Shown here: piece after piece, positions 6,209 to 64,000 of the stretch
How positions within the stretch are numbered: position 1 is the stretch's first letter
Layout: each line of letters opens with the position of its first letter
Assembly: GCF_900289045.1 (NCBI RefSeq)
Contig: NZ_LT985188.1
Span: 3,038,001-3,102,000 of the forward strand
Reading direction: 5' to 3'
Length of the DNA stretch: 64,000 bases
Source: Micropruina glycogenica
GTDB taxonomy: Bacteria; Actinomycetota; Actinomycetes; Propionibacteriales; Propionibacteriaceae
Translations under genes and position numbers: made by a program
Notes under the pieces: model-generated
Database searches by the model: none
The model's input: the letters and a program-made list of their open reading frames with translations, nothing else
Told to the model about the DNA's origin: nothing

Positions 6209-7488
6209 TGACGCGAGTCGTGGTGATCGGTGCCGGCCCCGCGGGCCTGGTCGCGGCCATTCGGCTGGCCGAGGGCGGTGCCCGGGTGGCGCTGCTCAAC
6301 AAGGGCACCGGCGGCCTGCAGCTCGGCCAGGGCACCTTGGACATCCTGGGTTACGGCCCCGACCGGGTCGAGCGTCCGCTGGACGCTCTGGCCGGCTTTG
6401 CCGAGGCACACCCCGGCCACCCCTACGGGGTGCTGCCCGCCGATCTGGTGGCCCGCTCGGCGAACTACCTGCGCGATCTGGTCGGCCCGGCGCTGCTGGT
6501 GGGTGATGCGGCGTCCAACCTGCAGTTGCCCACCGCGGTGGGCGCGGTGCGTCCGACGGCGCTGGCCTCGCCCAGCATGACCGCCGGCGCCTGCGTCGAC
6601 GGCGCCCGGTTCGTGATCGTCGGCCTGCGCCAACTCAAGGACTTCTACCCCGAGTTGGTGGTCGGCAACCTGGTGCGCACCGACCTGCCCGGCGGCGGAC
6701 GGCTGCAGGCCCGGGCGGCGATGCTCGACCTGCCCGCCCGTGAGGGCGAGATCGACTCGACCGGCCTCACCTACGCCAGGGCACTGGACGACCCCGCGTA
6801 CCGCAAGCGCTTCGCCCAGGCGGTCAAGGCTGTGGTCGAGCCGGGCGAGACCGTCGGACTGCCGGCCGTGCTCGGCTTGGACGACCACAACGCCTGGAGC
6901 GAGGTCGCTGAGGCGATCGGCGCGCCGGTGTTCGAGATTCCGCTGCCGCCGCCGTCGGTGCCCGGCATGCGGCTCAACCGGGCCCTGACCGCGCGGGCCA
7001 AGGCCGCCGGCGTCCGAGTCGTGCCGGGCAGCAAGGTGACCGGTTTTCGGGCTTCGGGCGGCGCCGTCGACAGCGTGCAATTGGCCACGGCCGGCGGTGA
7101 CCGCGACTTCGTGGCCGACGCGTTCGTGCTTGCCACGGGCGGTTTTGAGTCAGGCGCCCTGACGGCTGACAGCTACCACAACGTGCACGAGTCGGTGTTC
7201 GACCTGCCGCTGCGCCGGCCCGAGGGTCACCTGGTGCACGGCGACTACTGGGGTGACCCGCAGCCGTTGTTCACCATCGGTGTCGAGGTCGACGAGCAGA
7301 TGCTGGTGCGGCACCCGGGCGGCGACCCCGTGTACACCAACCTCTACGCCGCCGGCGGAATTCTGGCCGGCGCCACCCGCTGGCAAGAGAAGTCGGGCGA
7401 AGGCATCGCGGTGGCCAGCGCCGTCCGGGCCGCAGACTCGATTCTCGCCGCAGCAGCCACCGCCACAGACCAAGGAGCAGCCTCATGA
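6208..7488 (+). CDS. glpB: Anaerobic glycerol-3-phosphate dehydrogenase, subunit B
   Basis: About 426 residues with an N-terminal FAD/FMN-type Rossmann motif (VVVIGAGPAGLVAAIRLAEG) and the C-terminal FAD-family signature YAAGGILAGATRW. GlpB links the catalytic A subunit to the membrane-anchoring iron-sulfur C subunit. Two starts are possible: GTG 6205, overlapping the glpA stop, or ATG 6208. GAGGAGG at 6194-6200 sits 7 nt from the ATG and only 4 nt from the GTG, so the ATG is chosen. The gene overlaps glpC by 4 nt (ATGA). Confidence 0.92.
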   Translation: MTRVVVIGAGPAGLVAAIRLAEGGARVALLNKGTGGLQLGQGTLDILGYGPDRVERPLDALAGFAEAHPGHPYGVLPADLVARSANYLRDLVGPALLVGDAASNLQLPTAVGAVRPTALASPSMTAGACVDGARFVIVGLRQLKDFYPELVVGNLVRTDLPGGGRLQARAAMLDLPAREGEIDSTGLTYARALDDPAYRKRFAQAVKAVVEPGETVGLPAVLGLDDHNAWSEVAEAIGAPVFEIPLPPPSVPGMRLNRALTARAKAAGVRVVPGSKVTGFRASGGAVDSVQLATAGGDRDFVADAFVLATGGFESGALTADSYHNVHESVFDLPLRRPEGHLVHGDYWGDPQPLFTIGVEVDEQMLVRHPGGDPVYTNLYAAGGILAGATRWQEKSGEGIAVASAVRAADSILAAAATATDQGAAS

Positions 7489-9551: not shown

Positions 9552-10619
9552 TCAGACCCCTGAGCCGTTGGCCCCGAAGAACGTCTTCCACGGCACGTTG
9601 ACGGCCCGGTCTTTCGCCACCACCTCGTGCAGGTGCCGCAGCAGCGGGAACTGGTCGGGCTGCAGTACTCCGCGCTCGGTGAGCCGTTCGAAGGCGTCGC
9701 CGATCACCTTGATGGCCGCTGCACCCTCGAGGGTGACCCCCGGCATGCGGTCGCGGGCCTCGGTGAAGGTGAGGCCTGCGCCGACCAGCCGTCCGACCTT
9801 GACGTTGCGACCGCCCATCGAGGTGACGAAGCAATCGCCGATGCCCGGCAACCCCAGCACCGTGGACGGTTGCCCGCCCAGCAGATCCATGAACTGGGTC
9901 ATCTCGACCGAGGCCTGCCCGAACAACGCCGCGCCGTAGTTGAAGTTCACGTACTGCGGGTCGTCTTCGTCGAGGGCGTCCAACTGACCGTGCATGAAGC
10001 CGGCCCCGAACGCGTAGCAGTTCTTGGTGGCGGCACAGACCTCGACGCCGACGAAGTCGGAGCTCGTCCACACGTGGTAGAAGTCGGTGGCGAACAGGTC
10101 GCGCCACAGGTCGAGCACCTCGGGGTTCTCGCCCGTGAACACCACGCACGTGTGGCGCCGCATCGCCACCTCGCCCGCGATGGACGGCCCCGCGATCGCC
10201 GAGATCGACACCTGGTCACGCAGGTCGTCGGGCAGGTGCGCCATCAGGGCTCGGGGCAGAATCGTCAGATTGCCGTCGTCGTCGGCCTGCATGCCCTTGG
10301 CCAGGGCGATCACGTGCATGCCGGGGCGCAGCAGGCCGGCCAACTGCTCGCCCGCCCAGTCGACGCCGAACGAGTTGACGCCGCTCATCACCAGGTCGAC
10401 CCCGTCGAACGCCTCGGCGGCCTCTTCCAACTGGTAGGCGGTCACGTTCGGGGGCACCTCGAGGTTGAGGTTGGGGTGCACACCGGTGTTCTTGATCGAA
10501 TCGATGATCTCGCGATCGAGATGGGTGCCGACCAGCCGCACCTCGTTGCCGTTGTCGGTGAAGGGGGTGGCCAGCGCGGTGGCCATGATGCCCGAGCCCA
10601 GCACGACGAGAGTTGCCAT
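9552..10619 (-). CDS. GpsA-like NAD(P)-dependent glycerol-3-phosphate dehydrogenase
   Basis: About 355 residues of the NAD-dependent glycerol-3-phosphate dehydrogenase family. Visible are the N-terminal Rossmann loop VVLGSGIMATALATP, LAKGMQ, IAGPSIAGEVA and CAATKNCYAFGAG, whose Lys aligns with the catalytic Lys of GpsA. The family interconverts DHAP and sn-glycerol 3-phosphate in the cytosol. The sequence departs from housekeeping GpsA at several motifs (GSGIMATAL instead of GAGSWGTAL), so a paralogue with another polyol-phosphate substrate is possible. ATG 10619 has AAAGGA 8 nt upstream. It is divergent from the DeoR regulator and probably belongs to that gene set. Confidence 0.8.
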   Translation of the reverse strand: MATLVVLGSGIMATALATPFTDNGNEVRLVGTHLDREIIDSIKNTGVHPNLNLEVPPNVTAYQLEEAAEAFDGVDLVMSGVNSFGVDWAGEQLAGLLRPGMHVIALAKGMQADDDGNLTILPRALMAHLPDDLRDQVSISAIAGPSIAGEVAMRRHTCVVFTGENPEVLDLWRDLFATDFYHVWTSSDFVGVEVCAATKNCYAFGAGFMHGQLDALDEDDPQYVNFNYGAALFGQASVEMTQFMDLLGGQPSTVLGLPGIGDCFVTSMGGRNVKVGRLVGAGLTFTEARDRMPGVTLEGAAAIKVIGDAFERLTERGVLQPDQFPLLRHLHEVVAKDRAVNVPWKTFFGANGSGV

Positions 10620-10979
10620 GATGCATCCTTTCCGGCGATTCGCCGGGCCTGGCCGTCGGCGGGGTGCCGAGCGGCTGAACGATCGGCAAGCCGCACCGAA
10701 GCGGCGCCGGTGCCGAATCTGGTACTCGCCCAACCTAGTGCTCCGCACGGGCGCTTAGCCACACAAACATCGGGCCAAGCGTGTGGAATACAACACATCG
10801 TGAGTGAAACAGTCCCGTTCGGACGCTGGTCGTTACCGGCTGCGAGGGCTGCAGCACCAGTCGCTGACTAGCTGCGAAAAGTGACCAACCGGCGAAATCA
10901 CCCCGCCCGATGTGGCAAAGTGCGTACATTTTCTCACAGATGCGCGGAGATGTTTGTTAACTGAGAGTAAAGGTCAGTC
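10620..10979. promoter_or_regulatory. Divergent promoter region between gpsA-like gene and deoR
   Basis: A 360-bp gap with no gene. Its deoR-proximal half is AT-richer than the surroundings. TGTTTGTTAAC at 10951-10961, just upstream of deoR, resembles in opposite orientation TGTTACAAACA upstream of the isomerase gene. GTGTGGAATACAACACA near 10780-10797 is partly palindromic. Confidence 0.45.
10951..10961. promoter_or_regulatory. Candidate DeoR operator 1
   Basis: TGTTTGTTAAC lies 19 bp before the deoR start. Its reverse complement GTTAACAAACA differs by one inserted base from the GTTACAAACA found at 11842-11851. DeoR-family proteins often bind such short T/A-rich sites near their own gene. 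Confidence 0.3.
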
Positions 10980-11783
10980 ATGGCTGTGAAAGGACGTGGA
11001 CGAGGGTCGGCGGGGGCGCTGCGCGAGCGGCGAATGACGATCGCCGAACGGGTGGTCAAGAACGGCTCGGCCTCGGTCGACGAACTCGTCGAACTCACCG
11101 GGGTGTCGGCGATGACGGTCTATCGCGACATCGAGGCCCTCGAAGATGCCGGCGTGCTGGTGCGCCATCGCGGTCAGGTCACCGCGGTGGCCACCGGGCT
11201 CAACGAGATCGCTGCCAGCATCCGGGTCAATCAGAACGCCGAACTCAAGCAACAGGTCGCCCGAGTGGTCGCCGACCGCATTCGCCCGGGCAGTTCGATC
11301 ATGGTGGACGACTCGACCACCGCCCTGTGGGTGCTGCGCCAGCTCGACGTGGTGCCGATCACCGTGGTGACCAACTCGATGTTGGTGGCGCGTGAACTCG
11401 AGCGCCGCTCGGGTGTGCGACTCTTCGTCACCGGCGGTGAGTACCAGGCCTGGGCCGAGGCGATGCTGGGCCAGAACACCACCGACGTGATCGCCGGCAT
11501 TCGGGCCGACTACTGCCTCATGTCGGCCTCTGGCATCAGCGACCTGCAGTGCTTCCACCCCTACGAAGACTGCGTGCAGGTCAAGCGGGCCATGATGGCG
11601 TCGTCGGCCGAGTCGATTCTGCTGCTCGACCACACCAAGCTGAACCGTCGGGCGCTGCACACCTTCGCCTCGATGACCGACTTCGACCAGGTGATCGTGG
11701 ACGCGCTGACGCCGTCCGACCTGATCGCCGACCTGCGCGAGCGGGGCGTAAACGTCACCCAGGCCGGCGCCGTCAACGAGTGA
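10980..11783 (+). CDS. DeoR/GlpR-family transcriptional regulator
   Basis: About 267 residues. An N-terminal winged helix-turn-helix (residues ~18-75; MTIAERVVKNGSASVDELVE then SAMTVYRDIEALEDAGVLVR) is followed by the DeoR sugar-phosphate sensor domain, with SIMVDDSTTALWVLRQL, ITVVTNSMLVAREL and the FVTGGEY segment. ATG 10980 is preceded by AAAGG. Because it heads the isomerase, membrane protein, phosphatase and dehydrogenase genes and faces the GpsA-like gene, it is the likely local regulator of both directions. The effector is presumably a phosphorylated polyol or tetrose/pentose intermediate. Confidence 0.88.
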   Translation: MAVKGRGRGSAGALRERRMTIAERVVKNGSASVDELVELTGVSAMTVYRDIEALEDAGVLVRHRGQVTAVATGLNEIAASIRVNQNAELKQQVARVVADRIRPGSSIMVDDSTTALWVLRQLDVVPITVVTNSMLVARELERRSGVRLFVTGGEYQAWAEAMLGQNTTDVIAGIRADYCLMSASGISDLQCFHPYEDCVQVKRAMMASSAESILLLDHTKLNRRALHTFASMTDFDQVIVDALTPSDLIADLRERGVNVTQAGAVNE

Positions 11784-11840
11784 CCGTGGGCGACTGAACG
11801 GCCCGATAAGTTCCAGACCGCTGGAAAGCATCACAAAGTC

Positions 11841-11851
11841 TGTTACAAACA
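11841..11851. promoter_or_regulatory. Candidate DeoR operator 2
   Basis: TGTTACAAACA lies 73 bp upstream of the isomerase start, in the only sizeable gap of the run (140 bp). Its similarity to the site before deoR suggests a second controlled promoter here. Confidence 0.3.
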
Positions 11852-11923
11852 CCTTGCTCGCTGGTAGGTTCAGGCCAGCGGACCCCTGTCGGCGGGTCCG
11901 TCACCTCGTGCAAAGGAGTACGA

Positions 11924-12415
11924 ATGGGCCTGCGAGTGGTGGTCGCGGCGGACATCGCCGGATACGACTACAAAGAGCAACTGAAGAAAGACCTCGAGGC
12001 CGACGACAGGGTCGATGAAGTCATCGACGTTGGCATCGGATCCGGCGAAGACGTCGACTACCCCCACGTGGCGGTGGCCGGCGCTCGGCTGATCGCAGAA
12101 GGCAAGGCCGACCGTGGCCTGTTCGTCTGCGGCACCGGCATGGGCGTTGCGATCGCAGCCAACAAGGTTCCCGGCATCAGGGCCAGTACGGCACACGACA
12201 GCTTTTCCGTCGAGCGACTCGTGTTGTCGAACAACGCCCAGGTGCTCACCTTCGGTCAGCGGGTCATCGGGCTCGAACTGGCCAGGCGACTGGCCAAGGA
12301 GTGGCTCGGGTACACCTTCGACCCGAACTCGTCCTCGGCGCCCAAGGTGGCCGCTCTCGAGTCGTACGACACCGGCGACAACAGTGCGGAGGCCGCGCGA
12401 ACCAGCTGCGACTGA
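11924..12415 (+). CDS. RpiB/LacAB-type sugar-phosphate isomerase
   Basis: About 163 residues of the RpiB fold, which interconverts aldose and ketose phosphates. [20 protein letters not shown] contains the catalytic Cys loop, and [12 protein letters not shown] and [18 protein letters not shown] are the other conserved segments. The stretch that reads R-x-x-H-N-(N/D)-A in ribose-5-phosphate isomerases reads [10 protein letters not shown] here, as I recall for tetrulose-phosphate isomerases of the EryI/DerI kind. A four-carbon substrate is therefore plausible but unproven. AAAGGAG lies 5 nt before ATG 11924. Confidence 0.82.
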
Positions 12416-57724: not shown

Positions 57725-59089
57725 GGACTCATGTCAAGATGCCCGCTTGGGTTGGGTCGTTGACTCATTTCGTTTTGCCCGCGTCATTTTTGTTCGGGAT
57801 AGGTAGACGTGGTTGCGTTTGGCTGCTTTGAGGATGGTGCCGCGGCGGCGGGCGAGTTCGAGCAGGTTGCGTTGGATGAGGTCGATGTCTCGGCGTAGTT
57901 GGGCCGGGTTGGCCTGGGTGATGCGACTGTCAAGGTGTCGCCGGTCCTGGTCGTCGAGGACGGTGGGGTGGTCACGGAGCAGCCGGCCGGCCGGGGTGGT
58001 GGCGGTGTCGTAGGTCTTGGTGACTTTCGCTCCGGTGCGGGTCTTGGTTTTCAGCTTCTGTTGCGGGGTGAACAGGTTGGACAGTTCAGCGGCCAGGGGC
58101 CATAGCTGGTTGAGCAGGTCGAGTTCCCGGCTGGTGTCGTAGCGGTAGTAGCCGACGTTGCGGCGGACTCTGGTCCAGTTCTTCTGTTCGATGTGGGCTT
58201 GGTCGTTGGAATGGTTCGGGCGGCCGCGGGTGAACGTGATCTCACGGGTGTTGCACCAGCTCATCAGGTGGTGGTTAATGAACTCGGAGCCGTTGTCAGA
58301 GTGGACGCCCACGATCGCGAACGGGAACCGGAGGGCGAGTTGCTCCAGCCCGGTGGCCACGATCCTTTCGCCCTTGGACTTCACGGTGATGGTTTCGGTC
58401 CAACCGGTAGCCACGTCGACAGCGTCCAGGCTGTAGTGGAAGTGGCCGTTGTTGTCGCCGCCGTCGTGACCGACCAGATCGATCTCGATGAACCCTGGCT
58501 GGGTGTCGTCCCACTCGTGCCAGGTCTTCAGCGGGATCGACGATTTCAACAGCGATCCGGGGCGGGTCAAGGACCGGCCCTTGAGGTTGCCGACCAGCCC
58601 GAGCCGGTAGGGCCGCAATCGGCGATCGATGGTCGCCGCCGACATGGCCAGCAGTGCGTCGATGACTTCGGGTGTCGCGTTCAGCTCGCCCTTGGCGACC
58701 AGGCTCGCGACCAGGACCGGCAGCGCTGGGCGCACGATCTTGCCGCTGGGTCCGTCCAGCACCGCCCAGCACACCGCCAAGGCGTCGATCACCTCAGGTC
58801 CGTAGCGGAACACAGGCTCGCGGGGCCTGCGTGGCCGGTTCACGTCCACACCGGCGACCGCTGCCCGGATCATCTTGCGGGCATGGTCTCGATGCCAGCC
58901 GTTGACCGCGACCAGATGATCCAAAATGGTCGACTTCTCAGCCTTGGTCGCCTTCGGCCACGCCTTGACCTGGCTCGCCAGCACAGCCTTCCGTTGCCTC
59001 ATCGTCAGCCCCATCCCCGCAGCCTGACCCACGCGGGCATTCTCAGATGAGTCAACGACCCCACCCACGCGGGCATTCAGCACGAGTCA
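57725..59089. mobile_element. rve-type insertion sequence IS-B
   Basis: 1365 bp with doubled terminal sites at both ends. Left: 57725-57746 and 57761-57782. Right, reversed: 59033-59054 and 59069-59089. The cores are TGACTC...TGCCCGC, again 36 bp apart. IS-B lies 15 bp from the end of IS-A. Both ISs carry related transposases on the minus strand. Confidence 0.8.
57734..59014 (-). CDS. DDE (rve-type) transposase of IS-B
   Basis: About 426 residues from ATG 59014 (MGLTMRQRKAVLASQVKAWP); a longer open frame reads into the terminal repeat and is rejected. Catalytic Asp, Asp and Glu are expected in GFIEIDLVGHDGGD, VGVHSDNGSEFIN and QAHIEQKNWTRVRRN. It shares RDHARKMIRAA and SAATIDRRLRPY motifs with the IS-A transposase. 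Its stop codon falls inside the outermost left terminal site, so its last residues are encoded by transposon-end DNA. Confidence 0.8.
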   Translation of the reverse strand: MGLTMRQRKAVLASQVKAWPKATKAEKSTILDHLVAVNGWHRDHARKMIRAAVAGVDVNRPRRPREPVFRYGPEVIDALAVCWAVLDGPSGKIVRPALPVLVASLVAKGELNATPEVIDALLAMSAATIDRRLRPYRLGLVGNLKGRSLTRPGSLLKSSIPLKTWHEWDDTQPGFIEIDLVGHDGGDNNGHFHYSLDAVDVATGWTETITVKSKGERIVATGLEQLALRFPFAIVGVHSDNGSEFINHHLMSWCNTREITFTRGRPNHSNDQAHIEQKNWTRVRRNVGYYRYDTSRELDLLNQLWPLAAELSNLFTPQQKLKTKTRTGAKVTKTYDTATTPAGRLLRDHPTVLDDQDRRHLDSRITQANPAQLRRDIDLIQRNLLELARRRGTILKAAKRNHVYLSRTKMTRAKRNESTTQPKRAS

Positions 59090-59155: not shown

Positions 59156-59232
59156 GGGCCTATAGCTCAGACGGTTAGAGCGCTGCCCTGATAAGGCAGA
59201 GGTCACTGGTTCAAGTCCAGTTAGGCCCACCA
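59156..59232 (+). tRNA. tRNA-Ile (anticodon GAU)
   Basis: GGGCCTA pairs with TAGGCCC in the acceptor stem. The anticodon loop CTGATAA gives GAU. The T-arm region GGTTCAAGTCC is intact, and discriminator A plus encoded CCA complete the gene. In many actinobacteria tRNA-Ile and tRNA-Ala follow gyrA-DUF3566. Here an integrase gene follows, so the 3' end of this tRNA is the likely attachment site of an integrated element. Confidence 0.95.
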
Positions 59233-59400
59233 GATCTCGATGAGATCCACGCACCCCACTTCCCGCCTCCCTGACTAGGGCTTATGCTTGTTCTGAGCAG
59301 GTCGAGCGAGTGGTCAGAAGTAGGCAGATGGGGACAGAAATAGGCCCTCATAATGCACGCAAGATGCACGACACGCCGGTGGAACGGGCGGGTGAGAGCC

Positions 59401-60530
59401 ATGGCACGGACGAAGCGAGCCTTCGGGACGATCCGCAGGTTGCCCTCGAAGATGTACTAGGCCAGTACATCGGGCCAGACATGGCTCGACACAACGCGCC
59501 GGGCACATTCACCGCCAGAGCGGACGCGGAGGGCTGGATCGCTCTGGAGCGCCGGCTGATCGAGTGGGACGAGTGGGCGCCGCCGGCCCAGCGGCGGGCG
59601 AAGCAGCTCCACGACGACACCCAGACGTTGCGGACGTACGCGGACACCTGGTTGCCGGAGCGAACCGCCGTACGCGGCCTGAAGCCGAAGACAGTGAGTG
59701 AGTACCAGCGGTACCTCGACCGGCTCATCTACCCGACGCTGGGCGAGATGCGGCTGAAGGATGTGACGCCAGCGACCGTGCGTGCGTGGATCGGGAAGCT
59801 CAACGCCAGGACGCCACGGATCAATGAGCACGCCTACGCGCTGCTGAAGACGATCTTTGCCACGGCCGTGCAGGATGAGCTGCTCGACCGGAACCCGTGC
59901 CGGGAACGGATGCGGAAGCCCTTCCGGCACATCGGGGAGCCGGCCACGCTGGACGAGCTGGCGCTGCTGGTGGCCGCGATGCCTGAACGGCTGAGGCTGA
60001 TGATCGAGCTGGCGGCGTGGTGCGCGCTGAGGTTCGGTGAGTTTGCCGAACTGCGACGAGGCGACGTCGACCTCAGGAACGGCGAGATCCGGGTCAGCCG
60101 AGCGGTGCAGTGGGTCGACGGCAAGAAGATCGTGGCTGCGCCCAAGGCGGACAGCGTTCGCGTGGTGGCGTTTCCGCCCCACCTCGGGGAGGCGGTCAAG
60201 GAGCACCTTCGGACGCACGCGCAGTGGGGCAAGGACGGCCTGCTGTTCCCGACCACCCACGGTGAGCAGTACCGGGCGCCCACGTTCCACCAGGCGTACT
60301 TCAGGAAGGCCAGAGAGGCCGCTGGGCGGCCCAACCTCCGTTTCCACGACCTCCGGCACACCGGAGCCACCTTGGCGGCCGCCTCAGGCGCAACGCTCGC
60401 CGAACTGATGCAGCGTCTGGGCCACTCGACCGTCTCGGCCGCGCTGGCCTACCAGCACGCTGCGCAAGGCTCGGACAAGCGGATCGCGGTCCAGCTATCA
60501 GCGTTTGCCAGCGCCTGGAACGAGAACTGA
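59401..60530 (+). pseudogene. int: Tyrosine integrase, 5' end broken by stop and frameshift
   Basis: A family-typical start MARTKRAFGTIRRLPSKMY is encoded from ATG 59401 but ends at TAG 59458-59460. The rest (YIGPDMARHNAPGTF onward) continues one frame away, so a CAG-to-TAG change and a lost base lie within about 10 bp. The downstream 350 residues are intact: core-binding domain, then catalytic Arg in ALRFGEFAEL, HDLRHTGATL, GHSTVSAALAYQH. A shorter protein from an unknown start in the main frame is possible but would lack the DNA arm-binding N-terminus. It lies 168 bp after tRNA-Ile and is the probable recombinase of this island. Confidence 0.75.
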
Positions 60531-60735: not shown

Positions 60736-60939
60736 CTAACGGAGAAGACCGCGGGCGCGTTCGATGCGTTCGCGAAGCCCCTCCTGGAACTTCGCGTCCT
60801 TGCTGACGGATTCGATGTGACTCGCGATAGCGGCCCGGATCACGTCCGAGACTGGCTGGTTCTCGACGCTCGCCACGGTCTCCAGTTGCTCAGCCTGTTC
60901 GGCAGACAGACGAATGGTCATTGCTTTCTGGGCGGACAT
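60736..60939 (-). CDS. Ribbon-helix-helix DNA-binding protein
   Basis: About 67 residues from ATG 60939. MTIRLSAEQAEQLETVASVE has the beta-strand and first helix of CopG/Arc-type proteins, and QPVSDVIRAAIASHIE the second helix. The charged tail could bind a partner. No toxin gene is adjacent, so it may be a stand-alone repressor. It is divergent from the Ubl operon, and a tandem TGGTATCA repeat lies in the 95-bp gap between them. Confidence 0.75.
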   Translation of the reverse strand: MSAQKAMTIRLSAEQAEQLETVASVENQPVSDVIRAAIASHIESVSKDAKFQEGLRERIERARGLLR

Positions 60940-60990
60940 GCCACCCAGTGTGCCACCACATGCACGAATTATCCATATATCTTGGTGGCG

Positions 60991-61006
60991 TGGTATCATG
61001 GTATCA
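60991..61006. promoter_or_regulatory. Tandem operator candidate TGGTATCA x2
   Basis: Two perfect adjacent 8-bp copies, 29 bp before the Ubl operon start and 52 bp from the RHH start. Tandem short direct repeats are a common operator form for RHH repressors. TATCAT here could also serve as a -10 element, so binding would block transcription. Confidence 0.45.
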
Positions 61007-61034: not shown

Positions 61035-61499
61035 ATGACCGCACAGGCTGAAGCCCACGCGAAGAAGATCACCATCTACATCGACGGCGAGTCGTACGAG
61101 ACCACGTCGGGGCGCACCCCCGTCGCGACTCTGCGTGGCCTGCGTCGCCCGCCGGTCCCGGCCGACAAGGACCTCTGGCTTGATATAGAGGACGAGCAGG
61201 ATCAGGAACTCGACGCGGCCGGCACCCTCGACGTCGTCGACGGGATGCGGTTCTTCACCGAAATCGACGCGATTACCATCCGCATCGACCGCGTCGAGTA
61301 CGAGGTCTACAAGCACAAGATGACCGGCGTCGAGCTGCGCGCTGTGCCCAGCCCCGATGTTCCTGCCGACCGCGACCTGTGGCTTGACGTGCCCGACAAG
61401 CGCGACGTCAAGGTCCAGGACGAGGACGTCGTTCGTCTTAAGGATGGGGTGCGCTTCTTCACCGCCCCCGGTCGCATCAACCCTGGGCGGGCGTCGTGA
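61035..61499 (+). CDS. Two-domain ubiquitin-like protein (multiubiquitin family)
   Basis: 154 residues made of two tandem beta-grasp domains. Domain 1 is ~9-70 (KKITIYIDGESYETTSGRTP ... VVDGMRFFTEI) and domain 2 ~72-145 (AITIRIDRVEYEVYKHKMTG ... LKDGVRFFTAPG). The repeated pattern VPADKDLWLD/VPADRDLWLD then DGMRFF/DGVRFF shows the internal duplication. The C-terminus is GRINPGRAS, not a terminal Gly-Gly, so trimming to a glycine (for example after INPG) by the JAB domain of the same operon is plausible. The ATG follows AGGAG. It should be the modifier conjugated or polymerised by this system. Confidence 0.85.
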   Translation: MTAQAEAHAKKITIYIDGESYETTSGRTPVATLRGLRRPPVPADKDLWLDIEDEQDQELDAAGTLDVVDGMRFFTEIDAITIRIDRVEYEVYKHKMTGVELRAVPSPDVPADRDLWLDVPDKRDVKVQDEDVVRLKDGVRFFTAPGRINPGRAS

Positions 61500-61879
61500 A
61501 GCTGCCCGAGCCGGACCGCGAATTCCTCGACCGGTCCGGCATCAACTACCGGGTCTTCGACGACGGCACCGGCATGCTGAACGTCGAGTTGATCGGCTTC
61601 CCGCTGCCGCTCGGCCTGAACGCGGATGTGGCCTGTGTGTTGTTCCGTCTTTCCGCCAGCTACCCCGATACCCCGCCCGACATGTGGTGGATCATCCCCC
61701 ACCTGGCGCCGGTGGGCGGCGGCGGGATCCCCGCCACGGAGGTCATCGAGACCCACGACGGCCGCAGCTGGCAGCGTTGGTCGCGACACCTTGATCCGAC
61801 AGCCTGGCGGTCCGGAATCGACGGGCTGGAGAGTTACGTGCGCCTCCTGCGCACTGAGCTGGGGAGCGCTGCCGCATGA
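61496..61879 (+). CDS. E2-like protein (prokaryotic E2 family E type)
   Basis: 127 residues, GTG start overlapping the Ubl stop. YRVFDDGTGMLNVELIGFPL, LFRLSASYPDTPPDMWW and RSWQRWSRHLDPTAWRSGID match the prokaryotic E2 family E layout; YPDTPP corresponds to the conserved YPxxPP turn of E2 enzymes. The only Cys (Cys47) precedes this turn, whereas the catalytic Cys of classical E2s follows it. So either the active residue differs or the protein is a non-canonical carrier. It is co-translated with Ubl and E1. Confidence 0.78.
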   Translation: MKLPEPDREFLDRSGINYRVFDDGTGMLNVELIGFPLPLGLNADVACVLFRLSASYPDTPPDMWWIIPHLAPVGGGGIPATEVIETHDGRSWQRWSRHLDPTAWRSGIDGLESYVRLLRTELGSAAA

Positions 61880-63252
61880 CCGCCACCCTGCGCCTTACAG
61901 GCCCGCTGCATGACGGCCTGGTGGCGATGGCTACTAGCCCAGTTGAAACCGGCGCCGTGCTACTCGTGCGTTACACCACCATCGATGGCAGCGACGTCAT
62001 CCTCCTGGGCGACGAGCTTGTGGCCGTTCCCGAGGATGCCTACGAGATTCGCACCCACCAGGCACTTCAGATCACCTCGGACGGCTATGTCCACGCGCTC
62101 AAGACCGCTCAGCAGCGCGGGAGGATCGCAATTTGGGTGCACAGCCACCCCGGTGAGCAGGCGATTCCCCGCCCGAGTCGCCACGACCGCGTCGTCAACG
62201 AGCAGCTCGAACCGCTGTTCCGTGACCGCACCGAGACCGACCAGTACGGCTACCTCGTCGTCAGCCACGACAACGGCACTCTCACCTTCACCGGCGAGCT
62301 CATCGGGCGGATCAACACGCCGATCGCGCGGTTGTCCGTCATCGGCGAGCGCTGGATCTTTCGTCCGGCCTTCGACACAGACGCCGGCACCGACCGATCC
62401 CTGTTCGACCGGAACATCCGTGCCTTCGGCGACGGGATCCAAACCGCCATCAGCGAACTTACCGTCGCCGTGATTGGCGCCGGAGGCACCGGTTCCGCCG
62501 TCGCCGAACAGCTCGCCCGGCTCGGAGTTCGCTCGTTCATCCTCATCGACCCGGACATCCTCTCCGACTCCAACACGACGCGCGTCTACGGCTCCACGCC
62601 TGCCGACGTCGGTCGCCCGAAGGTGGACGTCCTCGGTGATCACCTCGAACGCATCGCCCGTGGAGTCCGCACCACGCGCGTCCAAGGGTCGATTCTCACC
62701 GAGACCGTCGCACGTACCATGGTCGGCGCGGACTTGGTCTTCGGCTGTACCGACGACAACGCCGGCCGTCTGCGGCTGTCGCGGTTGCCGTACTACTACC
62801 TGATCCCGGTCATCGACTGCGGCGTGCAGATCCCCGCCGACCAACAGGGCATCATCACTGGCGTATTCGGAAGGGTGACGACCCTGTACCCGAGCAGCGC
62901 CTGTCTGATCTGCCGCGACCGCATCGACCTCGCTGTCGCAGAGGCCGAGACCCGGTCCGCGAACGAGCAGAAGCGGCTCGAGAAGGAGGGTTATGCACCA
63001 GCGCTGCCAGGTGTCGAGCCCGCCGTGGTCACCTTCACCACCCTCGTCGCGGCCACTGCTGTCAGTGAGCTACTGGAGCGGCTGGTCGGCTACGGCGACA
63101 CCCCCACCCCGTCCGAGCTGATCCTCTTCATCCACGACCGCACCATCCGCGGCAACATCGGGGCGTCGCACGAAGGGCATTACTGTGACCCGGCTACTCG
63201 CCGAGTTGGCACCGACGACGACATGTTCCTGGGGTTGAATTGGGCATCCTGA
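61876..63252 (+). CDS. JAB peptidase-E1 (ThiF) fusion protein
   Basis: 458 residues. Residues ~10-150 form a JAB/JAMM zinc isopeptidase: possible Glu24, His89-x-His91-Pro, Ser101 and Asp104 (VHSHPGEQAIPRPSRHD). Residues ~185-450 form a ThiF/E1 adenylation domain with GAGGTGS (201-207), Asp225, Asn233 and Arg236, plus Cys343-x-x-Cys346. The JAB part probably trims Ubl or removes it from targets; the E1 part adenylates its C-terminus. A candidate catalytic Cys is not obvious. It overlaps the E2 gene by 4 nt (ATGA). Confidence 0.88.
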   Translation: MTATLRLTGPLHDGLVAMATSPVETGAVLLVRYTTIDGSDVILLGDELVAVPEDAYEIRTHQALQITSDGYVHALKTAQQRGRIAIWVHSHPGEQAIPRPSRHDRVVNEQLEPLFRDRTETDQYGYLVVSHDNGTLTFTGELIGRINTPIARLSVIGERWIFRPAFDTDAGTDRSLFDRNIRAFGDGIQTAISELTVAVIGAGGTGSAVAEQLARLGVRSFILIDPDILSDSNTTRVYGSTPADVGRPKVDVLGDHLERIARGVRTTRVQGSILTETVARTMVGADLVFGCTDDNAGRLRLSRLPYYYLIPVIDCGVQIPADQQGIITGVFGRVTTLYPSSACLICRDRIDLAVAEAETRSANEQKRLEKEGYAPALPGVEPAVVTFTTLVAATAVSELLERLVGYGDTPTPSELILFIHDRTIRGNIGASHEGHYCDPATRRVGTDDDMFLGLNWAS

Positions 63253-63575
63253 AGAGCATCCGATACTGGCGCCGCTGGAAGGCCGACCTGAGCACGTCCT
63301 CGGCCGCCGACATTCCCGTCCGGCTACCCGTCCGCCGCGCTGTGGTCGTGGAAAGCGCGGGCCGACCCAAATGGCTCATCTTCGACTGCCCCTGCGACCG
63401 GGGGCATCGAGTGATGCTCAATCTGGACCGAGGGAACCGACCGCTCTGGCGCATCGCCGACCGCTATCCGCTCACCCTCTATCCCAGCGTCGACGAGCGC
63501 AGTTCCGTCGGCCACTGTCACTATGTTGTACGCGACGGCTACGTACGCTGGATCGAACGAACGGATCACCGATGA
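63240..63575 (+). CDS. DUF6527-like protein
   Basis: 111 residues. It resembles DUF6527, a small family I associate with bacterial Ubl operons: KWLIFDCPCDRGHRVMLNL, PLWRIADRYPLTLYPSVDER and CHYVVRDGYVRWI. The CPCDRGH pair and later Cys/His could bind metal or form a catalytic site. The apparent start is TTG overlapping the E1 gene by 13 nt, and no better start exists. Its biochemical role is not known to me with certainty; processing or removal of Ubl is possible. Confidence 0.65.
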   Translation: MGILKSIRYWRRWKADLSTSSAADIPVRLPVRRAVVVESAGRPKWLIFDCPCDRGHRVMLNLDRGNRPLWRIADRYPLTLYPSVDERSSVGHCHYVVRDGYVRWIERTDHR

Positions 63576-64000
63576 CCCACCCTCACACCGAGCCCGAGGA
63601 CCAGCTCGGATTCGTTCCAACACCGCCACTGCCCGAGCCCACCCCAGCGCCGAAAGGACCGACGCGGACTCCGATGTTCGAGGCGATGAACGCCAATCGC
63701 TATGCCCGGCAGAGTCTCATCAGAGAGATCGAGAAGGTCACGTCGACGACCCTGATTTGCTACGTCGTGGCTGACCTACAGATCGAGCGCACCGACGTCG
63801 TCGCCATGGTCGACCTACTGCACAACATCACGCCCGGCACCCCGATCGACCTGCTGCTGAACTCACCAGGGGGCGACATCGACGCTGCCGAAAAGCTCAT
63901 TCTCCTCATCCGAAAACGTGCTGGCAGCGCACCTGTGCGAGTCATCGTGCCCGACTACGCAAAAAGCGCGGCTACGCTCATCGCCCTAGGGGCCAACACC
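63572..64000 (+). CDS. SDH/ClpP-class serine protease (cut by window edge)
   Basis: 143 residues visible. A Pro-rich start of ~35 residues is followed by a crotonase-like ClpP/SppA-type fold: TTLICYVVADLQIERTD, LLLNSPGGDIDAAEKLI (oxyanion region) and IVPDYAKSAATLIALGAN, where Ser132 after Lys131 is the likely nucleophile. It is closest to the serine-dehydrogenase-proteinase (SDH_sah) group. ATG overlaps the DUF6527-like stop (ATGA), so it is the fifth gene of the Ubl operon. It might degrade modified proteins or be controlled by modification; the gene continues past the window. Confidence 0.8.
   Translation, partial: MTHPHTEPEDQLGFVPTPPLPEPTPAPKGPTRTPMFEAMNANRYARQSLIREIEKVTSTTLICYVVADLQIERTDVVAMVDLLHNITPGTPIDLLLNSPGGDIDAAEKLILLIRKRAGSAPVRVIVPDYAKSAATLIALGANT

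Follow-up and report, generated by a model that had tools for sequence, protein, structure and literature searches.

A 64,000-nucleotide stretch of the Micropruina glycogenica chromosome (GCF_900289045.1, NZ_LT985188.1, positions 3,038,001–3,102,000 of the forward strand), hereafter the window, carries near its right end a five-gene operon that is, with very little doubt, a protease-bearing subtype of the bacterial ubiquitination-like (Bub) pathway. The first four genes are those of the Bub pathway, and the fifth encodes a serine protease of the SDH/ClpP fold. The chances are about even that the locus is a Bub conjugation operon on a mobile tRNA-Ile element to which the protease has been added as a built-in effector. 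A conjugation module with an exchangeable effector is favoured over a simple tag-and-degrade system, and its role is probably anti-phage, as judged from gene content and conservation. Coordinates below are those of the window unless a locus record (L number) is named; L002 is the record of the same locus in its own chromosome, and a window coordinate equals the L002 coordinate plus 58000.

All five genes are on the plus strand. The first, bubA (61035–61499), encodes a two-domain ubiquitin-like protein (Ubl; Pfam Multi_ubiq, 3e-10) ending in FFTAPGRINPG followed by RAS. The product of bubB (61496–61879; Prok-E2_E, 3.4e-29) is a protein of the ubiquitin-conjugating (UBC) fold with a WQRWSRH motif and without a conserved catalytic cysteine. 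In the product of bubCD (61876–63252), a JAB/JAMM peptidase is fused N-terminal to a ThiF-type E1 (ThiF, 1.6e-33; Prok-JAB, 3e-5); with a cut-off of 25 bits, the Prok-JAB match falls just short in one Pfam scan (24.3) and passes in another (27.4). The fourth gene (63240–63575) starts with TTG and encodes a predicted metal-binding, all-beta DUF6527 protein (1.4e-18). The protease gene (SDH_protease, 3.6e-16) starts with the ATG at 63572 and runs beyond the end of the window at 64000; extension into the chromosome shows it to be complete, ending at 64504 (5572–6504 in L002) and encoding 310 residues. An earlier note, made from the sequence of the window, described five genes overlapping by 4–13 nucleotides and named the families Multi_ubiq, Prok-E2_E, Prok-JAB, ThiF, DUF6527 and SDH. 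Pfam searches place all five proteins in these families, the positions agree, and the overlaps are exactly 4, 4, 13 and 4 nucleotides. The same five-gene order recurs in dozens of loci, and the layout is therefore far beyond chance.

Comparison with solved structures identifies the pathway. BubCD matches Citrobacter BubCD (9ea4) with an E value of 9.5e-33, and BubB matches Citrobacter BubB (9eae_C) with 4.7e-22 in a profile search; a phmmer search of the PDB with BubA of the window gave no match. The proteins of a Citrobacter freundii plasmid (L112) match the solved chains closely (BubCD, 1.2e-253; BubB, 2.4e-72). Its bub genes are followed directly by DUF6527 and preceded by the genes for CapK WP_001567866.1 and CapS WP_001567865.1. 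These two accessions are the Enterobacter CapK/CapS pair of an EMBO J 2026 study (PMC13373217), which, in its available passages, presents the pair as Bub-linked in the text and as CBASS-linked in one figure legend. The identity of the operon follows from the chain matches together with the shared accessions.

The protease belongs to a recognizable fold family. It scores 59.5 bits against Pfam PF01972 (SDH_protease, cut-off 31.3) and 74.7 bits against NCBIfam Clp_like_SDH (cut-off 250). A model of the homolog in L015 adopts the fold of the 1510-N NfeD protease (3viv_A) and of ClpP, with a Z score of 14.1 and, for 3viv_A, a root mean square deviation of 3.5 over 178 residues; its N-terminal tail is of lower confidence. 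Residue conservation was counted over 92 rows, comprising 51 protease-bearing loci (the own locus, 5 from plasmids and 45 from the genome scan) and 41 others. The nucleophile-type serine is present in 51/51 proteases and the candidate histidine in 48/51, the other three having gaps. The gene lies 3′ of DUF6527 in 50 of the 51 loci and 5′ of bubA in L039. Of the 48 loci with measured spacing, 28 have its start within an ATGA overlap; this count leaves out the window copy, L009, L039 and L048.

The protease is confined to one part of the Bub tree. In a tree of 87 BubCDs, built by a quick method with support from the Shimodaira–Hasegawa-like approximate likelihood ratio test (SH-aLRT) only, all protease-bearing BubCDs fall within one starred group of 56 rows, 51 of which have the protease. 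Fifty rows carry that label, and L004 was added after a longer sequence (L098) showed its protease; L009, L064, L081, L087, L095 and the window copy of L002, being broken, short or duplicate, were left out of the tree. By record title the group spans Actinomycetota, Pseudomonadota, Acidobacteriota, Chloroflexota, Gemmatimonadota, Planctomycetota and Spirochaetota, with many metagenome bins that are possibly misbinned. Its five members without a protease are L022, L023 and L041, which have M78-type neighbors, and L032 and L052, which have a deaminase gene. L041 has a partial DNA-alkylation-repair frame that overlaps the end of DUF6527.

Distances among the proteases correlate with those among the conjugation proteins over 48 loci, L009, L024 and L048 being left out. 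Mantel r is 0.75 for BubCD, 0.72 for BubB, 0.75 for DUF6527 and 0.54 for BubA; pairs of core genes give 0.71–0.88, and the shuffle maximum is 0.16 for protease and BubCD and 0.28 over all pairs. Among 72,556 plasmid records, the protease is found at E ≤ 1e-20 in seven, all of which have BubB and which constitute the seven best BubB matches; 7 of the 98 plasmid BubB records thus have a protease match. The protease share in the genome scan (45/80) is inflated, since the best 80 of 211 relatives were taken by similarity to BubB of the window. From these sequence comparisons, the protease co-evolves with BubCD and is the mark of one Bub clade. The co-translated protease of the earlier note is thus real and clade-specific, and it is very likely part of the Bub pathway. 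The closest plasmid copy of the operon, on Microbacterium plasmid pSGAir0570_2 (L009, 5353–8826), has its BubCD and protease genes split into several frames by sequencing error or decay.

In two members of the protease group, L032 and L052, a gene for an anti-phage dCTP deaminase occupies the position of the protease and overlaps the stop codon of DUF6527 by 4 nucleotides. The two deaminases score 414.9 and 389.1 bits, respectively, against NF041025 (cut-off 400) and match PADLOC dCTPase with 3.1e-141 and 2e-133. In L032 the overlapping ATG is internal, its frame staying open for another 57 nucleotides upstream; the ATG overlap is also found in L052. Three further Bub loci outside the protease clade, on plasmids L138 and L139 and viral contig L095, have a deaminase gene within about 3 kb. 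The plasmid searches gave 46 matches for the deaminase (30 listed) and 98 for BubB (40 listed). L138 and L139 are common to both among the matches listed. Independence of the two would predict about 0.06 shared records in 72,556, and the records are not independent of each other. Because a deaminase cannot do the job of a protease, the fifth position is best described as an effector slot, and the replacement suggests that its occupant is exchangeable.

The earlier note suggested a tag-and-degrade or defence system. In a tag-and-degrade system, conjugated BubA would label proteins of the phage or the host for recognition and degradation by the SDH protease, a one-operon analogue of ubiquitin and the proteasome. 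The clade-wide coupling of the protease to the conjugation genes agrees with tag-and-degrade, as do the ClpP/NfeD fold and the invariant serine and near-invariant histidine, and the lower-confidence N-terminal tail could bind a Ubl. However, Pfam finds no unfoldase among the five proteins, an ATPase encoded elsewhere in the genome being possible, and the deaminase in the same slot of L032 and L052 cannot degrade tagged proteins. Tag-and-degrade is accordingly not favoured and is considered unlikely.

Other genes stand next to Bub operons. On Roseovarius plasmid pTHAF8_b (L140, 9171–9872), a CoiA-type gene starts 5 nucleotides after DUF6527 and is another candidate for the slot. A co-directional open reading frame (ORF) of 3.4 kb lies upstream of bubA in L068, L075, L076, L077, L084, L085, L089 and L093. 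Seven of these eight loci were included in a Pfam scan, in which seven members match UvrD helicase and eight match PD-(D/E)XK nuclease. In L075 and L085, the frame after DUF6527 encodes a calcineurin-like phosphoesterase, and similar frames are seen by eye in L076 and L077. The long ORF and the phosphoesterase are a possible further pairing with Bub.

Residue conservation in the conjugation proteins bears on their chemistry. The INPG motif of BubA is present in all 51 protease-clade rows and is followed by 1–25 residues after the glycine. In the Citrobacter plasmid, where BubA and BubB share one reading frame, a solved BubA chain ends at Gly229 and two solved BubB chains match from residues 230 and 228; these boundaries, which are those of the authors' constructs, are in line with a BubA that ends at the glycine. 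The JAB half of BubCD retains its motif, with the glutamate in 49/51 rows (2 gaps) and the two histidines, the serine and the aspartate each in 50/51 (1 gap).

Several deconjugases are frequent in a single Ubl system, and the protease could therefore be a second Ubl-processing enzyme that acts in the maturation of BubA or in its removal from targets, with a regulatory role instead of being the output. The short tails after the conserved BubA glycine are consistent with this possibility. The retained JAB motif indicates that a maturase is already present, and a deaminase could not replace a deconjugase. This role for the protease appears the least probable of those considered.

In the E1 half of BubCD, the ATP-site arginine, lysine and aspartate are present in 51/51 rows. 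The conserved cysteines are one in an FGC motif, a CxxC pair (51/51) and one in an HxC motif (50/51, 1 gap). The CxxC and HxC motifs look, we infer, like a zinc knuckle, and the CxxC is absent from Citrobacter BubCD; a catalytic E1 cysteine is therefore unlikely. In BubB, the serine and histidine of WQRWSRH are invariant (92/92). C-terminal of the YPD motif, where the cysteine of E2 enzymes is located, no alignment column has cysteine in at least 30% of rows. Some cysteine is found in this region in 45 of 92 BubBs (14/51 protease-bearing, 31/41 others), and the single cysteine of the window protein, residue 47, is N-terminal of YPD. As aligned, BubB is a UBC-fold protein without a conserved catalytic cysteine. 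The Citrobacter study reportedly argues for oxyester over thioester intermediates, which the Ser-His pattern of BubB would fit.

The DUF6527 protein is probably metal-binding: Cys50, Cys52, His56, Cys93 and His94 are each conserved in 51/51 protease-bearing loci. Its AlphaFold2 model is all-beta, with a predicted local distance difference test (pLDDT) score of 91.9. Comparison of the model with PDB folds gave no match (best Foldseek E value 0.53; best VIA Z score 2.5), nor did a search of the PDB with the DUF6527 profile. A RING or treble-clef E3, following the treble clef suggested in PMC1779556, was considered for this protein and is not supported by the all-beta model and the missing PDB match; no stronger verdict is given, because the lack of a match is no proof of a novel fold. 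DUF6527 directly follows BubCD also in Citrobacter and pSYSX. In a phylum sample of 396 genomes it is found in four, always after an E1-like gene and in two of them without BubB. It is not universal in Bub, as two BubB-bearing genomes of the same sample (G042 and G289) gave no match. Compact operons of Ubl, E1 and DUF6527 without BubB stand beside M78 genes in L148 (3857–5688) and L149 (5663–7495).

The operon is preceded by a predicted regulatory unit. A divergent gene on the minus strand (60736–60939) encodes a ribbon-helix-helix (RHH) protein of the CopG/DUF6290 type (DUF6290, 27.1 bits against a cut-off of 27; RHH_1, 21.7 against 20.5), a predicted repressor with an inferred start at MSAQKAM. 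A predicted operator on the plus strand (60984–61005) consists of tandem GGTATC-type repeats, with an exact GGTATC-N2-GGTATC at 60992–61005 and a degenerate third copy at 60984, and is located 30–51 bp upstream of bubA. The divergent RHH/DUF6290 gene precedes bubA in 49/51 protease-bearing loci and in 5/35 others; the neighbor counts leave out L004, L098, L006–L008, L087, L095 and the duplicate own-genome loci. GGTATC-N2-GGTATC with at most two mismatches is found upstream of bubA in 46 of the 55 RHH-bearing loci and in none of the 35 that lack RHH. In 20 dinucleotide shuffles the mean is 0.65 and the maximum 2 of 55. The observed spacing of the copies is 8 bp, and copies 9 bp apart were found in 0/55 RHH loci. 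Because one set of loci served both to discover the motif and to count it, the controls consist of the shuffles and the loci without RHH and do not include an independent set. Five protease-less RHH loci (L059, L064, L066, L067 and L071) have no GGTATC pair on the plus strand, and the operator therefore goes with the protease clade. In these five loci the divergent RHH gene is followed by a Doc-like gene, which suggests that the bub RHH regulator was derived from an RHH-Doc toxin-antitoxin pair.

The element that carries the operon also contains a Doc-type toxin gene (DOC_P1, 39.8 bits; cut-off 38.65) and a helix-turn-helix (HTH)/PIN pair. The Doc gene is on the minus strand at 6697–7253 of L002 and is preceded by a small gene without a Pfam match that looks RHH-like by eye only. 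Just upstream of these genes is GATACCAACCTGGTATC. Its GGTATC core is identical to that of the bub operator, and cross-regulation of the two loci is for this reason conceivable.

Other Bub operons have different neighbors, either XRE and M78 genes or CapK/CapS. M78 corresponds to the family called DUF955. The two protease-bearing loci without RHH, L034 and L063, both have M78 neighbors, as do three protease-less members of the clade. The M78 profile, built from a single seed, misses some members; of 75 ORFs scanned with Pfam in the protease-less set, 14 match M78. L014 gives weak matches to capP (2.9e-6) and capH (5.7e-4). At the own locus the RHH gene is present and no M78 match was found in the searched span, CapW and CapK/CapS not having been profile-searched. 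According to the available passages of PMC13373217, CapW, CapH/CapP or CapK/CapS regulators are common, not defining, in Bub operons (219 + 59 of 544). Kopfmann et al. (2016, PMC4963859) reported, in the part of their paper available, that 70% of PF14452 proteins are encoded beside DUF955 genes, which they read as toxins; the reading of M78-type neighbors as CapH/CapP fits the later literature (PMC13373217, as available) better.

These neighborhoods bear on whether the operon acts in defence at all. It could instead be a plasmid or island maintenance module or a general stress-response module, regulated like a toxin-antitoxin locus. The Doc-type toxin gene and HTH/PIN pair of the element are consistent with this possibility, as are Fic genes near 22 of the 51 protease-bearing operons, the reading of the Synechocystis neighbor as a toxin-antitoxin pair (Kopfmann et al. 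2016, PMC4963859) and the available passages of the EMBO J 2026 study (PMC13373217), which leave a global stress role open for Bub. The same passages state that phage protection by Bub operons is so far undemonstrated. Anti-phage deaminases in or beside five Bub loci speak against it, as do the XRE and M78 neighbors of several relatives and the weak CapH/CapP matches where tested (L014). A function outside defence is judged improbable, somewhat more so than tag-and-degrade.

The favoured reading, a conjugation module with an exchangeable effector, can be set out as a series of steps. The divergent RHH protein, associated with the tandem GGTATC operator, would repress bubA, and stress or infection would lift the repression. 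The JAB half of BubCD would then trim BubA after the glycine of INPG, consistent with its active-site residues and the Citrobacter chain ends, and the E1 half, which retains its ATP-site residues, would adenylate this glycine. BubB would hand BubA on without a cysteine thioester, perhaps via the invariant serine and histidine, and DUF6527, probably as a metal-binding accessory, may help to choose or hold the partner. Conjugation of BubA to the protease or to its substrate would activate the protease, so that host or phage proteins are cleaved and the infection is stopped. In other loci, the fifth position can hold a different effector, the anti-phage dCTP deaminase. An anti-phage function of the whole operon is somewhat more probable than an effector role of the protease under control of conjugation, for which the odds appear balanced. 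More tentatively, and with odds well below even, the operon may constitute a self-contained ubiquitin-and-protease immune system, in which a Ubl cascade without an E2 cysteine yields conjugates that direct or activate a ClpP-fold protease without an ATPase, and in which the output, protease or dCTP deaminase, is exchangeable.

Several observations weigh against this scheme. First, the protease tracks BubA less closely (r 0.54) than the core genes track each other (0.71–0.88), and SDH-type proteins are also found without Bub: 24 of the 396 genomes have one at E ≤ 1e-20, and two of these are Bub-linked. Two of the other 22 genomes were inspected and contain no Bub genes, and in 14 IMG/VR contigs with a relative of the protease, the stretches examined gave no match to Bub. 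Second, the in-operon deaminase substitution consists of two metagenome-assembled loci, L052 being slightly under the NCBIfam cut-off, and the deaminases of L138, L139 and L095 stand outside the bub transcription unit. Deaminase genes also occur as defence genes on their own, and most of the 46 plasmid matches are outside the BubB records listed; some of the deaminase–Bub neighborhood may therefore be plain defence-island clustering. Third, only L032 and L052 have the deaminase among 34 protease-less loci with DUF6527 from the genome scan and pSYSX, four of which end there, and the rest mostly lack a long frame overlapping the DUF6527 end. Many Bub operons, including that of Citrobacter, end at DUF6527, and an effector in cis is therefore not required. 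Finally, the link between RHH and protease is confounded by ancestry (three independent pairs, in the expected direction; sign test p 0.25), and the RHH gene also precedes five protease-less operons.

The operon is chromosomal (3,844,677 bases in one contig). It lies on an island beside a tRNA gene, as the earlier note had described. The tRNA-Ile (GAT) gene is on the plus strand at 59156–59232 (ARAGORN) and is followed by a tyrosine recombinase gene on the same strand (59310–60530; Phage_integrase, 2.3e-22) and then by the Bub operon. A repeat search found that the 29-bp 3′ end of the tRNA (attL, 59206–59234; 1206–1234 in L002) has an exact second copy 9,014 bp downstream, beyond the window (attR, 68220–68248; 10220–10248 in L002). 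This recurrence, expected of integrative elements, delimits a tRNA-Ile element of about 9 kb with the tRNA gene as its predicted integration site. Its mobility is read from the att repeat and the integrase alone. The G+C content is 64.4%, compared with 67.6% for window positions 1–57000. A search of relatives with the right flank, aimed at an empty integration site, gave two matches from the same family with 69–72% identity over most of the query; others were short. BubCD relatives at E ≤ 1e-30 were found in 3 of 96 related genomes, the own genome being the only close one and the others 30–33% identical. Eight records of a phage collection match BubCD, none over 80% of its length, and BubB relatives are present in three IMG/VR contigs, one of which has a recognizable, shortened BubB and BubCD.

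Several features surround the element or resemble its parts. Two shortened frames, one for isocitrate lyase (ICL, 8.5e-69) and one for malate synthase (MS_TIM-barrel, 1.4e-55), lie between attR and a 69% att-like copy and look like remains of an earlier insertion or rearrangement at this tRNA gene; the remnants and the att-like copy are at 10444–12215 and 12310–12338 of L002 (68444–70338 on the window scale). Directly 5′ of the tRNA, a minus-strand gene at 57734–59083 encodes a 449-residue protein, probably a transposase because of its integrase-core (rve) domain (3.2e-10). A genome of the same genus (G397) has a distant, different Bub-type locus with an M78 neighbor and no protease match (L123, 6399–8612). 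In genome G007, a Bub-less SDH-type protease gene is divergent to an M78 gene (L119, 4872–7288).

The operon can be compared with several described systems. The earlier note called such a system not characterised in this lineage, which holds only in part: the four-gene cassette was described in 2006 as group 6e, and Citrobacter BubCD and BubB structures have been solved. Group 6e (Iyer, Burroughs and Aravind 2006, PMC1779556) comprises a polyUbl, a probably inactive E2/RWD-like protein without the cysteine, a JAB-E1 fusion and a metal-binding protein, all of which are shared here. However, no serine protease gene is named in the available passages of that paper and the term ClpP is absent from its text, and the DUF6527 model lends no support to the treble clef suggested there for the metal-binding protein. 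Citrobacter Bub (PDB 9ea4, 9ea5, 9ea8, 9eae, 9eav, 9d59) shares homologous BubB and BubCD, a DUF6527 gene next to them, the Ser-x-His motif and the C-terminal glycine of the Ubl. It differs in that BubA and BubB share one frame, the Ubl is longer, the regulators are CapK/CapS and a protease gene is missing, whereas the present operon has separate BubA and BubB, an RHH regulator with a GGTATC operator, the SDH protease and the E1 CxxC. The Synechocystis pSYSX multiubiquitin cassette (Kopfmann et al. 2016, PMC4963859, in the part available) has the same BubA, BubB, BubCD and DUF6527 order on a plasmid, but contains no protease and has an XRE and ImmA/IrrE (M78) neighbor where the present operon has RHH.

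The Bil (BilABCD) anti-phage system also combines a Ubl, an E2, an E1 and a JAB-type deconjugase within a single operon, but its E2 has a catalytic Cys138 in a CEHH motif (PMC11354881, available passages), and BubB of the window has none in that region. The type II cyclic oligonucleotide-based anti-phage signaling system (CBASS) has Cap2, an E2-E1 fusion, and a CD-NTase gene; here the E1 is fused to JAB and the UBC protein is separate. The PADLOC E1-E2 models match only the E1 part of bubCD, and no PADLOC model matches BubA, BubB, DUF6527 or the protease at E ≤ 0.001. General Pfam scans showed no CD-NTase among the families of the ORFs found, no search having been aimed at it. The protease shares fold and nucleophile-type serine with SDH_protease (PF01972), NfeD 1510-N and ClpP, and the Bub proteases form their own subfamily inside Bub operons.

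Among the papers listed, literature searches showed no protease variant, including a term look-up in the available EMBO J text (PMC13373217); unpublished status is not claimed, since the most likely papers were outside reach. New here are the protease-marked Bub clade, the deaminase substitution, the link between RHH and the tandem GGTATC operator, and the BubB residue pattern. The cellular purpose of Bub conjugation has been demonstrated by nobody in the literature examined, and the protease clade, together with the two members that have an anti-phage enzyme in the slot, offers a candidate output for the pathway. If BubA conjugation activates the protease, the operon would connect ubiquitin-like tagging to proteolysis in a compact bacterial form, separate from eukaryotic systems and from the Pup-proteasome. 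If the operon is a self-contained immune system, Bub would be a general platform for activation whose effectors can be swapped, and in this it would resemble CBASS.

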